Shown: positions 17,028 to 56,180 of the stretch, piece by piece
Layout of the letters: each line of letters begins with the position of its first letter
How positions within the stretch are numbered: position 1 is the stretch's first letter
Source: Methylopila sp. M107
GTDB taxonomy: Bacteria > Pseudomonadota > Alphaproteobacteria > Rhizobiales > Methylopilaceae
DNA: 64,000 nt
Reading direction: 5' to 3'
NCBI RefSeq assembly: GCF_000384475.1
Contig: NZ_ARWB01000001.1
Span: 2,026,176 to 2,090,175, forward strand
The notes under the pieces: model-generated
Database searches by the model: none
The model's input: the letters and a program-made list of their open reading frames with translations, nothing else
Told to the model about the DNA's origin: nothing
Program-made: the position numbers and the translations under genes

Positions 17028-17954
17028 TCAGGCCGTATCGGGCTTCCAGCCGCGCCAGACGGACTTCTTGGTGAAGTAGAGCAGCCCCGCGAACACGATC
17101 AGGAAGAACATCACCGTCAGGCCGAGCTGCTTGCGGGCCATCAGGTGCGGCTCGGCCGCCCAGGTCATGAACGCCGTGATGTCGCGCGAGTACTGGTCGA
17201 CGGTCGTGGGCGTGCCGTCGGTGTAGTCCACCTGGCCGTCCGACAGCGGCTTCGCCATCGCGATCCAGTGGTTGGGGAAGTACTTGTTGTAGTGCAGCCC
17301 CGGACGCGGCGGCTTCTCGCCATGCGCGGGCTCCTCGTAGCCGTTCAGCAGCGCGTGGATGTAGTCCTGCCCGTGCTCCTGATACTGGCCGAAGATGTCG
17401 ACCAGGAACCACGGAAAGCCCCGCTCATAGGTGCGGGCTTTCGCGAGCGTGGAAAAATCCGGCGGATAGGCCCCGCCGTTCACCGCGCGGGCCGCCTCCT
17501 CGTTCGGGAACGGGCTCGGGAAGTAGTCGGACAGACGGCCCGCCCGCTCCGGGAACTCGCCCTTGTCGTCCGGCTGCAGGTCCTTGACCTTGTACTCGGC
17601 CGCGATCGTCTTGGCCTGGTCCTCGGTGAAGGCGAGGCCGCCCTTGTCCGCGAGGTTGCGGAACGCGACCATCGACAGCGCGTGGCAGCTCGAGCAGACC
17701 TCCTTGTAGATCTTGAAGCCGCGCTGGAGCTGCGCCGGCTCGTAATGGCCGAGCGGTCCCCAGAACGACCAGCTCTCGCGCGGCGGGTGCACGGCGCCTT
17801 CGGCGGCGCGCGCGCGGTCCATATCGGCGGCGAGCAGGCCGAGGCCGACCCCGAGAATGAGAGCAACGGAGCGGAACGCCCTGGCGGCGGAGGTCGTCAT
17901 GGCGGAGGTCGTCATGGCGGCGGCCTTCGGTCTGATGCGTGTGAGGACGGTCAT
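17028..17954 (-). CDS. petC: Cytochrome c1 of the bc1 complex
   Basis: The haem-binding subunit of ubiquinol:cytochrome c reductase. The haem motif Cys87-x-x-Cys90-His91 (CSSCH) follows a signal peptide ending near ARA-AEG (residue 51). A C-terminal anchor helix ([18 protein letters not shown]) holds it to the inner membrane. The likely axial methionine lies in IAMAKPL. The start overlaps the petB stop (ATGA). The signal region contains an in-frame duplication [10 protein letters not shown] from a 15-base tandem repeat, so ATG codons further in are possible alternative starts. Confidence 0.95.
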
Positions 17955-19225
17955 CCGCGCGTCTCCGGCGCAGCCGCGGCCGTGGCGCGCGCGCCGCCAT
18001 AGGACGAGCCCAGCACCGAGTCGGCGATCGACGCCGGCAGCGGCCTCGTCTTCTCGAAGGTTCCGAGCAGCGGCAGGATCACGAGGAAGTATGCGAAATA
18101 GTAGACCGTCGCGAAGCGCGACAGGGTGACGTAGGGCTCCGCCGCCGGCTTCGAGCCGAGCCAGCCGAGGAAGATCACGTCGAGGATGAACAGCGCGAAG
18201 AACAGCTGGAACGCCGGCCGGTAGTTGCCGGAGCGGACCTTCGAGCGGTCGAGCCAGGGCAGCACGAACAGCACCGCGATCGCGCCGAACATCATCAGCA
18301 CGCCGCCGAGCTTGGACGGGATGGCGCGCAGGATCGCGTAGAACGGCAGGAAGTACCATTCGGGCACGATATGCGCCGGCGTCACCAGCGGGTTCGCCTT
18401 GATGTAGTTGTCGGCGTGGCCGAGGTAGTTCGGGATGAAGAACACGAAATAGGCGAAGAAGATCAGGAAGACCGTGAGCCCGACGCCGTCCTTCAGGGTG
18501 GCGTAGGGCGTGAACGGCACCGTGTCCTTGCGGATGTCCTTCACCTCGACGCCGGTCGGATTGTTCTGGCCGACCTGATGCAGCGCCCAGATGTGCAGGC
18601 CGACGATGCCGGCGATCACGAAGGGCAGGAGATAATGCAGCGCGAAGAAATGCTTGAGCGTCGCGTCGTCGACCGAGAAGCCGCCCCACAGCCACGTCAC
18701 GATGGTCGGGCCGACCACGGGGATCGCCGAGAACAGGTTGGTGATGACTGTCGCGCCCCAGAACGACATCTGCCCCCAGGGCAGCACGTAGCCCATGAAG
18801 GCGGTCGCCATCATCAAGAGGAAGATCAGCACGCCGAGGATCCAGAGCACCTCGCGCGGCGCCTTGTAGGAGCCGTAATACATGCCGCGCGCGATGTGGA
18901 TGTAGACCGCGATGAAGAACATCGAGGCGCCGTTGGCGTGCAGATAGCGCAGCAGCCAGCCGTAATTGACGTCGCGCATGGTCTTCTCGACCGACTCGAA
19001 CGCCTTGGTGGCGTCCGGCACGTAATGCATCACGAGCGTGACGCCGGTCAGGATCTGGGCGACCAGCATGAAGGTCAGGATGCCGCCGAAGGTCCACAGA
19101 TAGTTCAGGTTGCGCGGCACCGGATAGGCGATCGCGCTCGAATGCACGAGGCCGACGATCGGCAAGCGATCCTCGAGCCACTTGGCGACGCCGCCGGTCG
19201 GCCGATACGTCGAATGTCCCTGCAT
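17951..19225 (-). CDS. petB: Cytochrome b of the bc1 complex
   Basis: The 424-residue, eight-helix core subunit carries two b haems and the quinone sites. The Qo-site PEWY motif is visible in [12 protein letters not shown], along with haem-ligand histidines in [16 protein letters not shown] and [17 protein letters not shown]. The N-terminus and length match alphaproteobacterial cytochrome b, not the split b6 form. It is the middle gene of the operon, 49 bases after petA. Confidence 0.97.
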
Positions 19226-21511: not shown

Positions 21512-21592
21512 CGTCATTCCGGCCGAAGGGCTGGAATCCAGAAACACGAACGCAATGAGATAGTTGCGGGGATGATTGTGGGTCTGGATTCC
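21512..21592. repeat. Left half of a family A palindromic repeat, interrupted by IS110
   Basis: The left arm CGTCATTCCGGCC...GGCTGGAATCCAGA is complete. Joining the sequence ending GGTCTGGATTCC here to GGCCCTTCGG at 22712 restores a perfect family A right arm, so the mobile element sits inside the repeat. Confidence 0.75.
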
Positions 21593-21598
21593 TGTGTG

Positions 21599-21718
21599 TC
21601 TCGCCTATGGCATTGTGTTGGCGGGCGAGAGACCGTTGGATTCCTGATCGCTTGAGATCGCGGCAGCCGGCTCGGTCCTCGCCCGCCTGTACAAACCCAA
21701 CCTGAACAGTTGACCGAG
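21599..21718 (+). ncRNA. Candidate bridge RNA of the IS110 element
   Basis: IS110 transposases use a structured RNA encoded in the non-coding end, with one loop pairing to the target and one to the donor ends. Here TCTCGCC (21599-21605) pairs with GGCGAGA (21624-21630), and CTCGGTC (21671-21677) pairs with GACCGAG (21712-21718). Between the two stems, GGATTCC at 21638-21644 equals the left side of the actual target. The loop of the second stem contains CCTGTA and ACAGTTG, resembling the two element ends (CCTGTG and ACAGTTGCC). Boundaries are approximate; structure and role are inferred. Confidence 0.5.
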
Positions 21719-21756
21719 GCCGCGCCAACGGACCTCGCATCACAGGGATAGGCGCG

Positions 21757-22698
21757 ATGATCATAACCCCTGGCTTCATCGGTTGCGACGTCTCCAAAGC
21801 TCATCTCGACATTTTCGACGGCGGCCTCGGCCGGCCTGAACGCATCCCGAACTGCGCGGAGGCGATCGCGGCGCTCTGCGAACGCTGGCGGTCGCGCGAG
21901 GTCTTCGCTCTGTTCGAAGCCACCGGACGCTACGATGCGGGCCTGCGGCTCGCGCTCGACGCGGCGGGCATTCCTTACGCCCGCGTCAACCCGGCCCATG
22001 CCCGCGCCTTCGCGCGCGCCAAGGGACGGCTCGCCAAAACCGACGCGATCGACGCTGAAAGCCTGGCCGCCATGGCCATGACGCTGAGGCCCGATCCCAG
22101 CCCCGCCCGCAGTGCGGTCCGCGACCGCCTGGCGGCGCTCGGCGGTCGCCGCGACCAGCTAGTCGCCGATCGCGCCCGCGAGAAAGCGCGGCGCGAAGCG
22201 CTCGACGAGCCCGCCGTGGCGGACGACATCGCCGCCCATCTCGACTTCCTCGATGGCCGCATCAAAGCGCTCGAGGCCGCGATCGCGGCGCTCGTCGCGG
22301 CCGAGGCCGAGCTGGCCCAGGACCAAGCGCTACTGCGTTCGATTCCGGGCTTCGGGCCGATCGCGACCACCGTCATGCTCTCAGTCATGCCGGAGCTCGG
22401 CCGCCGCGACCCGAAGGCCATCGCGGCGCTCGCGGGCCTCGCCCCGATCAATCGTGACAGCGGCGCGTTCCGCGGCAAGCGCGCGATCGGCGGCGGACGG
22501 CGGCGCGTGCGACGGGCGCTCTACATGGCCGCGCTCGCGGCGATCAAGACCAGGCAGCGCTTCGCCGACATCTACAAAGCCATGATCGCCAAGGGAAAAC
22601 CGCCCAAGGTCGCGATCATCGCCATCGCCCGGAAGCTCCTCGTTGTCGCAAACGCAGTCCTGCGAGATCAGACACCCTTCAAAGCAGAACACGCCTGA
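21757..22698 (+). CDS. IS110-family transposase
   Basis: The 313-residue protein has the N-terminal RuvC-like DEDD domain, with Asp11 (GCDVSK), Glu54 (FEATGRYD) and Asp96/Asp99 (KTDAIDAESLA). The C-terminal Tnp_20 domain carries IPGFGPIATTVML and the conserved Ser235 in DSGAFRGKR. All key residues are present, so it should be active. The only copy in the window. Confidence 0.96.
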   Translation: MIITPGFIGCDVSKAHLDIFDGGLGRPERIPNCAEAIAALCERWRSREVFALFEATGRYDAGLRLALDAAGIPYARVNPAHARAFARAKGRLAKTDAIDAESLAAMAMTLRPDPSPARSAVRDRLAALGGRRDQLVADRAREKARREALDEPAVADDIAAHLDFLDGRIKALEAAIAALVAAEAELAQDQALLRSIPGFGPIATTVMLSVMPELGRRDPKAIAALAGLAPINRDSGAFRGKRAIGGGRRRVRRALYMAALAAIKTRQRFADIYKAMIAKGKPPKVAIIAIARKLLVVANAVLRDQTPFKAEHA

Positions 22699-22709
22699 AA
22701 ACACAGTTG

Positions 22710-22732
22710 CCGGCCCTTCGGCCGGAATGACG
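22710..22732. repeat. Right half of the interrupted family A repeat
   Basis: CCGGCCCTTCGGCCGGAATGACG is the right arm of the repeat whose left part ends at 21592. The pairing arms GGCC...GGCC around TTCG are intact. Confidence 0.7.
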
Positions 22733-30931: not shown

Positions 30932-30967
30932 GGGGGGTGTTTCTGACAGGCGGCGCCGTCGCTCTTC

Positions 30968-31106
30968 TCCCCTCCCCCTTGAGGGGAGGGGTCGGGGGTG
31001 GGGGTGACGGCGGCGCCTTTGCAGGACGCCCTCGGCCGTACGACGCCGGCCTGAAAGCGCGCCGCCGTCACCCCCACCCTTACCCTCCCCTCAAGGGGGA
31101 GGGGGT
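30968..31106. repeat. Family B nested inverted repeat
   Basis: CCCTCCCCCTTGAGGGGAGG with GTCGGGGGTGGGGGTGACGG is mirrored by CCGTCACCCCCACCC and CCCTCCCCTCAAGGGGGAGG about 100 bases later. It sits between the DUF4159 and 691-residue membrane genes and might uncouple their expression. Confidence 0.75.
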
Positions 31107-31145
31107 CAGCGGCGTCGCGACACCTTATAGCGCGGCGCATCGCCC

Positions 31146-33239: not shown

Positions 33240-33421
33240 CCCCCTCCCGCTTGCGGGGAGGGGCTAGGAGACGCCGCGCTACTCCCCTCCCCCTTGAGGG
33301 GAGGGGTCGGGGGCGGGGGTGCGGGCGGCGCCCTCGACGGACAGGGTTGACCGTCCGACGCCCTTCTGAGAACACGCCGCCGTCACCCCCACCATTACCC
33401 TCCCCTCAAGGGGGAGGGGTT
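33240..33421. repeat. Family B nested inverted repeat
   Basis: It contains CCCCTCCCGCTTGCGGGGAG and CCCTCCCCCTTGAGGGGAGG, mirrored by CACCCCCACCATTACC and CCCTCCCCTCAAGGGGGAGG near 33390-33418. It lies between the cluster's last gene and marC. Confidence 0.7.
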
Positions 33422-33453
33422 CGGAAGCGTCCCGCTTTTCTTCGGACCGATCG

Positions 33454-34169: not shown

Positions 34170-34442
34170 CCGTCATGCCCACGTCTTCACGCACCAGTGT
34201 CCGGTTCGTTTTACGCAGGCGCAGATCGCCTTGACTTGGGCACGCGAGGCCCCCTCACCCGGATGACTTACAGTCATCCGACCTCTCCCCGCCGGGGAGA
34301 GGTGTAGGGACGGCGCCGTTCTTCACCTCTCCCCCGCGGGGAGAGGTCGGCGCGGAGCGACGGGTGAGGGGGTTCCCGTTCTCAGGCAATGCCTTGCGCG
34401 CACCGAGACGGAACCGGACACTCGTGAGCTGCCGCTCGGGCA
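34170..34442. repeat. Composite inverted-repeat unit, MITE-like (copy 1)
   Basis: The unit has outer inverted arms, AGTGTCCGGTTC near 34195 and GGAACCGGACACT near 34410, around nested family B hairpins (CCCCTCACCCGGATGACT, ACCTCTCCCCGCCGGGGAGA and their mirror). A closely similar unit lies at 55917-56180. With its flanks it fills the gene-free stretch 34141-34568. No coding sequence is supported. Confidence 0.65.
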
Positions 34443-41193: not shown

Positions 41194-42054
41194 ATGGCTC
41201 GTCCGGCGGGCATGATCGCGGTTTGGCGCCCAGGCGTTGTTCTGGCCGCCGCGCTTGCGCTCGCAGGCTGCGACACGATGGGCTCGGGCTCGCGCGACGT
41301 CGACCCGGACGTCTACGCCGCCCGCACCTCGGACCTCTCCTCGCTCTCCCAGGTGGTGAACAGCAACCCGAACGACCCGGAAGCGCTCAACATGCGCGGC
41401 TCGGCCTATGCGCGGCTCGGCCAGTACGACAACGCGATCGGCGATTTCAACCGCGCGGTCCAGATCAACGGCTCGTTCGCCAAGGCCTACGCCAACCGGG
41501 CGCTGGCCTACCGCTCGAAGGGCGACAACGGCGCGGCGCTCGCCGACTACAACCGGGCGATCGAGGCCGACGGCAATTACGGCTCGGCCTATGTGGGCCG
41601 CGGCAACCTCTACCGCATGACCGGCCGCACCGATTCCGCGCTCGCCGATTTCGACCGCGCCATCCAGGTCGACCCGAACAATGCGCAGGCCTGGCACAAT
41701 CGCGGACTGATCCATCAGAGCCAAGGCCGCCAGGAAGACGCGATCGACGACTTCACCAAGGCGACCGCGATCTCGGTGACGCAGGCGGAACCCTATATCG
41801 GCCGCGCCAACAGCTATCTCGCGCAGGGCGACTACGCGGCCGCGATCGACGACTTCAACACCGCCCGCACGCTCGCGCCGAAGAACGTCGACGCATGGCT
41901 CGGCCGCGCGCAGGCCTTCGAGAAGCGCAACGAGCTGCAGAACGCCCGCGCGAGCTACGCGCAGGTGTTGAACATCGACGCTCGCAACAAGCAGGCCCAG
42001 GAGGGCTTTTCGCGCGTCGGCGGGCAGCGCGGTACGGCGTATACGGAGAACTGA
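41194..42054 (+). CDS. TPR-repeat lipoprotein
   Basis: The 286-residue protein has a lipoprotein signal with lipobox LALAGC, so it is probably anchored to the outer membrane. At least six TPR units follow, such as YARLGQYDNAIGDFNRAVQ, YRSKGDNGAALADYNRAI and YLAQGDYAAAIDDFNTA. The protein probably serves as a scaffold. Its last 46 codons are duplicated as a fragment at 45642-45779. A hairpin GGCTTCGCCCGAAGCC follows the stop. Confidence 0.92.
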   Translation: MARPAGMIAVWRPGVVLAAALALAGCDTMGSGSRDVDPDVYAARTSDLSSLSQVVNSNPNDPEALNMRGSAYARLGQYDNAIGDFNRAVQINGSFAKAYANRALAYRSKGDNGAALADYNRAIEADGNYGSAYVGRGNLYRMTGRTDSALADFDRAIQVDPNNAQAWHNRGLIHQSQGRQEDAIDDFTKATAISVTQAEPYIGRANSYLAQGDYAAAIDDFNTARTLAPKNVDAWLGRAQAFEKRNELQNARASYAQVLNIDARNKQAQEGFSRVGGQRGTAYTEN

Positions 42055-42438
42055 GCGAGGCTTCGCCCGAAGCCCTGCCCGCGCCGTTCGCCAGAAGACG
42101 CAAGACGGCGGCGGCAATCGGTCCGGACAGCTCCACGGCGGCGCGGTGCGGGCGACGGAGGCGATGAGCTGCGCTTTGGTGGGCAGAACGTCGTGGCCCG
42201 ACGGCCGCGGCCCGTGGCAATTTCGACAGGATCGCGACAGACTCGGCGATTATCATTTCGTGATCGCTCCGCTCTGTCTCAACTGTGGGCTGTCGGATGC
42301 GAAACGACCAAGCTTTAAAACAACAACTGCCCAACCAAAAACCAAAGCGGGCCGACGCATAGCGCGCCAAAGCTCCATGCGACGCTCGCCGGATCGGAAA
42401 TAAATCCGACCGGAAAACGACACGTGGGGAAGTGCTCG
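42055..42438. other. Gene-free region between the TPR lipoprotein and tctC
   Basis: No supported gene. A perfect 7-base hairpin GGCTTCG-CC-CGAAGCC (42059-42074) follows the TPR stop. An AT-richer segment near 42300-42350 (GCTTTAAAACAACAACTGCC) may be the tctCBA promoter. Nothing indicates a riboswitch. Confidence 0.4.
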
Positions 42439-45618: not shown

Positions 45619-45641
45619 CCCTCGGCGCGCCTCGCGAGACG

Positions 45642-45779
45642 TTCACGAGGCGCAACAAGCTGCGGAACGCCCGCGCCAGCTGCGCCCAGGCGCTGAACAT
45701 CGACGGCCGCAACAAGCCGGCCCAGGACGGTTTTTCGCGCGTCGGCGGGCAGCGGGGCGCGAGCTTTACGGAGAATTGA
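45642..45779 (+). pseudogene. Truncated copy of the TPR lipoprotein 3' end
   Basis: This stretch translates as a near copy of the TPR lipoprotein C-terminus (NKLRNARASCAQALNIDGRN, then FSRVGGQRGASFTEN and a stop). The corresponding part of the intact gene is 41917-42054. By eye about 85 percent of bases match over some 130 positions. No start codon or signal is present, so it is a gene remnant. It lies just downstream of tctA, so the tct genes are bracketed by direct copies. Confidence 0.75.
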
Positions 45780-45884
45780 GGGGGTGCTGCAGAGCCGGGC
45801 TTCGGAGCGAACGTTTTTGCCTCTACCTCCTGTTGCAACGGCAAATCGTTTAGCTAGCCTCGCCTGATTGGCGGGGCGGACACG

Positions 45885-55916: not shown

Positions 55917-56180
55917 GTCATGACCGGGCGTGATGCACGAGTTTTCCGGTTCATTTTCGTTGGCGCAGATCGCCTTAACCTGAGCTCGCGAGGCCCCCTC
56001 ACCCGGATGACTTTCAGTCATCCGACCTCTCCCCGCCGGGGAGAGGTCAAGGGGCGGCGCAGCTTCTTCACCTCTCCCCGGCGGGGAGAGGTCGGCGCGA
56101 AGCGCCGGGTGAGGGGGCTTCCGTTCTCCAGCGATGACTTGCGCAGGCCGAGGCGGAACCGACACTCGTAGTCGTGATGC
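55917..56180. repeat. Composite inverted-repeat unit, MITE-like (copy 2)
   Basis: It shares outer arms (GTTTTCCGGTTCATTTTCGT; GGCGGAACCGACACTCGTA) and nested hairpins (CCCCTCACCCGGATGACTTT, ACCTCTCCCCGCCGGGGAGA) with the unit at 34170-34442. Together with the following family A repeat it fills the gene-free stretch 55842-56406. An AT-rich segment at 55838-55865 is the likely promoter of the phosphotransferase. Confidence 0.65.

Follow-up and report, generated by a model that had tools for sequence, protein, structure and literature searches.

An IS110-family insertion sequence with a predicted bridge RNA whose guides match palindromic repeats of its host genome

The window analysed here is a 64,000-nt stretch of the genome of Methylopila sp. 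M107 (G000; one contig of 4,453,493 bp), and it carries an IS110-family element inserted into a paired palindromic repeat (Table 1). The left flank ends in ...GGTCTGGATTCC (21581-21592), the element termini read TGTGTGTC...ACACAGTTGCC, and the right flank continues as GGCCCTTCGGCCGGAATGACG. It had been proposed that the insertion point can be read exactly, and this was borne out: joining 21592 to 22712 yields TCTGGATTCCGGCCCTTCGGCCGGAATGACG, in which the stem ATTCCGGCC/GGCCGGAAT is perfect. The restored hairpin, ATTCCGGCC-CTTC-GGCCGGAAT, is preceded by an inverted partner. Since CC is found at either end of the element and a single time when the target is restored, the core is CC, and the element length of 1119 bp counts one core copy. 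A CT core was considered and rejected, because CC is the sole dinucleotide common to both junctions, the circle, and the target. Elsewhere in the window we observed direct-repeat pairs unrelated to the element and 82-87% identical (30952-31119 and 33267-33434; 41912-42055 and 45637-45780; 34191-34416 and 55935-56161).

Table 1 Features of the element and its insertion site (window positions).
Feature	Positions	Strand	Basis or content
Left part of interrupted paired palindromic repeat	21513..21592	.	Inverted partner hairpin (CATTCCGGCCGAAGGGCTGGAATCCAGA), then left target CTGGATT and core CC
Left core dinucleotide CC	21591..21592	.	Sole sequence common to both junctions and restored target
IS110-family element	21593..22711	+	Four genome copies
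Left non-coding end, predicted bridge RNA, 164 nt	21593..21756	+	Homologue alignment, compensatory pairs, covariance model, fold z -3.8
Possible -10 box CATTGT	21611..21616	+	Suggested by IS621 and by homologues with equal layout
Target-binding stem-loop of predicted bridge RNA	21621..21686	+	Several stem pairs changed on both sides with pairing kept
Left target guide (LTG) TTGGATTCC	21636..21644	+	9/9 with target CTGGATTCC, one G:U
Right target guide (RTG) CAGCCGG	21664..21670	+	5/7 with CCGGCCC; GCCGG exact
Donor-binding stem-loop of predicted bridge RNA	21701..21752	+	Homologue alignment, stem pairs
Left donor guide (LDG) ACAGTTG	21706..21712	+	Identical to element right end before core
Right donor guide (RDG) CACAGG	21741..21746	+	Reverse complement of CC/TGTG, element left end
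IS110 transposase/recombinase, 313 aa	21757..22698	+	Pfam PF01548 and PF02371; catalytic D11, E54, D96, D99, S235
Right non-coding end, 13 nt	22699..22711	+	Holds left donor ACAGTTG and right core CC (22710-22711)
Right part of interrupted palindrome	22712..22732	.	GGCCCTTCGGCCGGAATGACG

The original assignment to IS110 was confirmed by the single open reading frame of the element, which contains both IS110 domains with 63.2 bits for PF01548 (cut-off 29) and 72.6 bits for PF02371 (cut-off 21.3). Residues 7-311 align with ISCro4 (structure 9t56; E 6e-32), which matches better in sequence than any other IS110 recombinase of solved structure, and with IS621 (E 5e-29), these two being the closest solved structures. 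The catalytic residues listed in Table 1 line up with the IS621 motifs EATG, KTDxxDA, and SG; by analogy with that protein, the recombinase would be loaded with its RNA and would cleave DNA through a DEDD/Ser active site. The layout is that of the IS110 group, with the longer non-coding end (164 nt) upstream of the transposase gene (tnp) and 13 nt downstream, and reading the element ends by eye revealed no 11-13 bp subterminal inverted repeat. In IS1111 elements, the long non-coding region lies downstream of tnp and is accompanied by subterminal inverted repeats.

The interrupted repeat belongs to an abundant class in the host genome, as counted by pattern searches. The arm CTGGATTCCGG has 54 copies across 4.45 Mb and none in the reversed-sequence control, and several of these arms form inverted pairs ~52 bp apart. 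The repeats resemble REP/BIME elements in being palindromic, numerous, and often arranged as inverted pairs, and they are intergenic at the four occupied sites described below. Of the four arm variants counted, TGGATTCCGG has 68 exact copies, TGGATCCCGG 55, and TGGGTCCCGG 82, the last being the most abundant in the genome and one that the resident guide does not match. The target of the window element is TCTGGATTCCGGCCC, and an uninterrupted site would have the form TCTGGATTCCGGCC.

Four near-identical copies of the element are present in G000, and mapping them placed 4/4 at the same guide-matched palindrome arm, TCTGGATTCC|GGCCC (element at the bar), within paired palindromic repeats. The copies differ at a single base, element position 299, where the window copy has G (21891) and the other three have C. 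This change is synonymous in an Arg codon (frame read by eye), and the near-identity suggests a recent spread. The flanks beyond the repeat are unrelated at all 4 loci, so the insertions are independent. The near-identity could also be read as the product of homologous recombination or segmental duplication between repeats, but we find that account barely conceivable: the unique flanks differ at every copy, which refutes the spread of a shared segment, and insertion occurred at one exact base with CC at both ends. Under random insertion, finding 4/4 copies at CTGGATTCCGG-type sites has p ~4e-21. When the four counted arm variants (68+55+82+13) are taken as equally usable, finding 4/4 at TGGATTCCGG has p ~0.01. 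None of the four copies (0/4) lies in the TGGATCCCGG (55) or TGGGTCCCGG (82) arms of G000, and these 137 sister arms are one or two bases off the occupied arm.

No Pfam-recognised gene is interrupted by any of the four copies. One lies between convergent genes for coproporphyrinogen oxidase and a polyA polymerase-type protein, a second between convergent genes for a NAD-binding protein and UvrC, and the remaining two each lie beside one recognisable gene (GST; SufB/D). The idea that such repeats offer safe landing sites would fit the position of all four copies outside the Pfam-recognised flanking genes. Searches of same-genus and same-family genomes found no homologue at E 1e-60, and no relatives of the element were found in viral contigs.

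The left end of the element was expected to carry a match to the target side between two stems, and we located this match, (T)TGGATTCC, inside a target-binding stem-loop. The LTG TTGGATTCC matches the left target, and GCCGG of the RTG pairs with CCGGC of the right target; the window RTG pairs at 5/7 positions only, and most relatives pair at 7. A second stem-loop had been said to resemble both element ends, and it indeed holds an LDG that equals the right end ACAGTTGCC (which reads ACAGTTG-CC) and an RDG that is the reverse complement of the left end CC|TGTG. The original prediction had the left target guide and a rough donor loop; the RTG GCCGG and both donor guides are present as well. Both RTG and RDG carry a GG that matches the CC core. 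The two bases after the window LDG are AC and not CC, so core pairing is imperfect there, and likewise in relatives. Bases at the core position after the LDG (column of window 21706-21714) vary among relatives as AC, AT, AA, CA, and CG, and the pairing between LDG and core therefore seems relaxed.

The structure of this left end was examined by folding, alignment, and covariance modelling. Its fold is more stable (-75.6 kcal/mol) than that of shuffled sequences (-59.9 +/- 4.1 kcal/mol; z -3.8). In an alignment of 11 elements, the target stem shows compensatory changes and the donor loop is conserved; 11/35 consensus pairs are double changes in which pairing is kept. A bridge-RNA covariance model, built from homologue RNAs and the window sequence, gave the window left end 153.6 bits, a score for a sequence that sits in the training set. 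The covariance search proposed earlier thereby had a clear outcome: the model matched exactly the four copies in G000, together with further elements in other genomes, and since nothing else was matched in G000, this genome has no orphan bridge RNA. An Rfam 15 scan of the region gave no bridge-RNA match, and its sole match was weak and irrelevant. It is well supported that the 164-nt left end reads as a predicted IS621-type bridge RNA with all four guides.

A junction promoter with right end meeting left end in the circular form has been described for IS621 (PMC11208158). TTGCCT is found at the equivalent place in 11/11 circle junctions of our elements, 17 nt before weak -10 boxes (CATTGT in the window). 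By analogy with the IS621 layout, this sequence would act as a -35 box formed only in the circle, and by the same analogy the element would form circles and the bridge RNA would be transcribed.

The decisive comparison was that of guides with insertion sites, for which we used 11 related elements, with boundaries and guides taken at fixed alignment columns. Homologues (~40-60% identity) came from same-order and same-class genomes, one metagenome-assembled genome, and plasmids. The LTG pairs its own target at 8-9/9 positions in the 10 elements with a full left target; in the remaining element (L016), 6 target bases are on the contig and all are matched. The RTG pairs its own target at 5-7/7 positions in 11/11 elements. 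Permuting the targets gave p 5e-6 (left) and 5.5e-5 (right), or 4e-5 (left) and 1.3e-4 (right) with one representative per distinct guide, values in which the relatedness of elements is not modelled. The LTG and left target read, respectively, TTGGATCCC/ATGGATCCC in G393, TTGGGTCCC/ATGGGTCCC in G241, TTGGGCCCC/GTGGGCCCC in G213, TTGGTCCCC/CTGGTCCCC in G378, TGTGCACCC/CGTGCACCC in G135, AAGCAATCC/AAGCAATCC in G621, and TCGGAATCC/CCGGAATCC in A. tumefaciens. On the right, RTG and target read GAGCCGG/CCGGCTC in G393, G213, and G159, and AGACCGG/CCGGTCT in G241. In this way, the original proposal that the target loop matches the host's own repeats extends to the homologues, in which guides track insertion sites.

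Twelve copies outside the 11-element set (from G121, G213, G130, and G391) also showed LTG matches of 8-9/9, with RTG matches of 6-7/7 in the nine for which the right end was found. Copies within G213 and within G121 share guides, so these are not twelve independent guides. Two sister elements in G213 differ in their guides (TTGGGCCCC/GAGCCGG vs TTAGGCCCC/GACCCGG); the second, at ATAGGCCCC|GGGTC, forms 8 and 7 pairs with its own site, and 7 and 6 with the site of the first. On the donor side, LDG and right end change together in wider homologues (CAGTTG, CAGTCG, CCGTTG, CAGTCA, and CGGTTG, by inspection); from L018, L021, L026, and comparably distant homologues, only the donor ends were taken. 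Two distant CC elements (L226 in G348 and L228 in G080) have guides off the simple rule and were left uncounted.

A different role for this DNA would be regulatory: the left end might act mainly as a leader or as an antisense target of the transposase mRNA, and not as a guide. In ISPpu9, itself a REP-inserting element, tnp is reported to be regulated by small RNAs and by a structured 5'-UTR (PMC8450116). Such a role does not predict covariation with an external target or with the element ends, and regulatory and guide roles can coexist; as the principal explanation, we hold it to be most improbable.

Four guide-matched motifs were each counted in eight genomes, and every one reached its highest count in the genome where the resident element has the matching guide. 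TGGATTCCGG occurs 68 times in G000 and 5-16 times in the other genomes; TGGATCCCGG occurs 213 times in G393 and 2-55 times in the others; TGGGTCCCGG occurs 143 times in G241, 82 in G000, and 4-21 elsewhere. TGGGCCCCGG occurs 201 times in G213 and 6-44 elsewhere, with a reversed control in G213 that is itself high (78).

Another reading is that the recombinase recognises the shape or sequence of the hairpin, and that the guide match arose incidentally, through common ancestry or the capture of flanking repeat sequence. This would be consistent with all G000 targets being palindrome arms, and REP-specific insertion was long credited to the protein (PMC1525189). Nonetheless, we judge it very unlikely. 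None of the G000 copies chose a sister arm one or two bases different, guides vary with targets at fixed alignment columns, and some guide-fitting targets are unlike the GGRNYCC arm (e.g., GTGCACCC in G135). The RTG also changes apart from the LTG: L016 has the LTG of the window element, yet its RTG is GATCGGG, facing the target CCCGATC.

Three relatives deserve description in their own right. L230 (G391:C1, near 3346775-3346929, - strand) is a 118-bp mini-element without transposase. It consists of a left end with target-binding loop and LDG that runs straight into CC and the remainder of a palindrome; it looks as if the ACAGTTGCC of the guide served as the right end. Its site, CTGGATCCC|GGGTC, matches its own guides. 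To the left of L168 (G135:C21, around 17635-18738) lies a piece of the left end of this same element, with the guide GTGTGCACCC as its last part, so L168 may have inserted into DNA encoding its own LTG; what flanks it on the right does not continue that RNA. In L214 (G121:C1:4089279), the left flank GAGATCGTTGGATCCC is similar to the guide region seen in a related G393-type element, and this is possibly another insertion into a guide.

We propose, with a probability of about 0.93, that the window element is an autonomous insertion sequence of the IS110 family with an IS621-like mode of action, its bridge RNA guiding it into host repeats. Read from the DNA itself, the boundaries, the 4/4 guide-matched insertions, the four guide matches, the covariation of target and donor guides, and the RNA structure all argue for this. 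The target-binding loop would pair with CTGGATT-CC-GGC of the host repeats (bottom strand for the LTG, top strand for the RTG), and at the circle junction the donor-binding loop would pair with ACAGTTG-CC-TGTG. Strand exchange by the recombinase would take place at the common core CC, and the element would enter the left arm of the repeat hairpin without loss of sequence.

The core is CC in 11/11 elements. In a tree (ignoring the mis-framed row L223, end branch 5), 13 CC rows group together with support of 99/99, and a second CC group falls within the CT elements. In IS621 orthologues, the CT core is highly conserved; its second T hardly ever varies, and the protein backbone reads it (PMC11208158). 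The clade departs from this IS621-type core. Cores other than CT function experimentally, though less efficiently, and improve with a 7-bp right guide (PMC11208160), so CC is a variant and not grounds for exclusion; many elements of the CC clade pair 7 bp on the right. We would give even odds to a broader proposal, that an alphaproteobacterial clade has fixed a CC core disfavoured by the IS621 structure, with target loops repeatedly rewritten to the exact consensus of the host's REP-like repeat. If true, this would amount to coevolution of guide and repeat giving many intergenic landing sites.

Earlier work has reported concordance between guide and target as well as natural redirection (PMC11208160, PMC11187229), and insertion into REP sequences is known for IS621 and several IS110-type elements including ISRm19 (PMC1525189, PMC11208160). 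With REP-guided IS110 elements already known (IS621, ISPpu9/10, ISRm19), what appears distinctive is the natural CC core across a clade and guides that follow the host repeat variant; the clear guide-repeat match and the CC core are the added value. Beyond the IS621 group, the elements put the bridge-RNA model to a clean test in nature: across about a dozen hosts, the target guides of both sides have changed along with insertion sites, and in one genome the element distinguishes repeat arms one or two bases apart. The match between guide and host repeat makes target switching on entering a new host testable, and recombinases that naturally use a CC core and a 7-bp right guide are candidate tools for bridge editing where the core is not CT.

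Among known systems, IS621 of E. coli (PMC11208160, PMC11208158) shares with the window element a RuvC-DEDD and Tnp-Ser recombinase, a left-end RNA with target and donor loops bearing LTG, RTG, LDG, and RDG in equal order, a 9-nt LTG that includes the 2-bp core, and natural targets in REP palindromes; a junction promoter may be common to both as well. It differs in its core (CT vs CC), in a recombinase that is only distantly similar, in right-guide pairing (4 bp vs up to 7 bp in many relatives of the window element), in the length of its RNA (177 nt vs a 164-nt left end), and in its host repeats. ISRm19 of Sinorhizobium meliloti is, by its published description, an alphaproteobacterial IS110 element with 4/4 copies in REP (PMC1525189); we found elements ~50% identical to that of the window in S. 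medicae and A. tumefaciens. The Pseudomonas elements ISPpu9, ISPpu10, and ISPa11 (IS110/IS1111) likewise have an exact, recurrent insertion point in REP (PMC1525189) but in other hosts and other repeats, and ISPa11 is of the IS1111 type, with its non-coding region downstream (PMC11187229).
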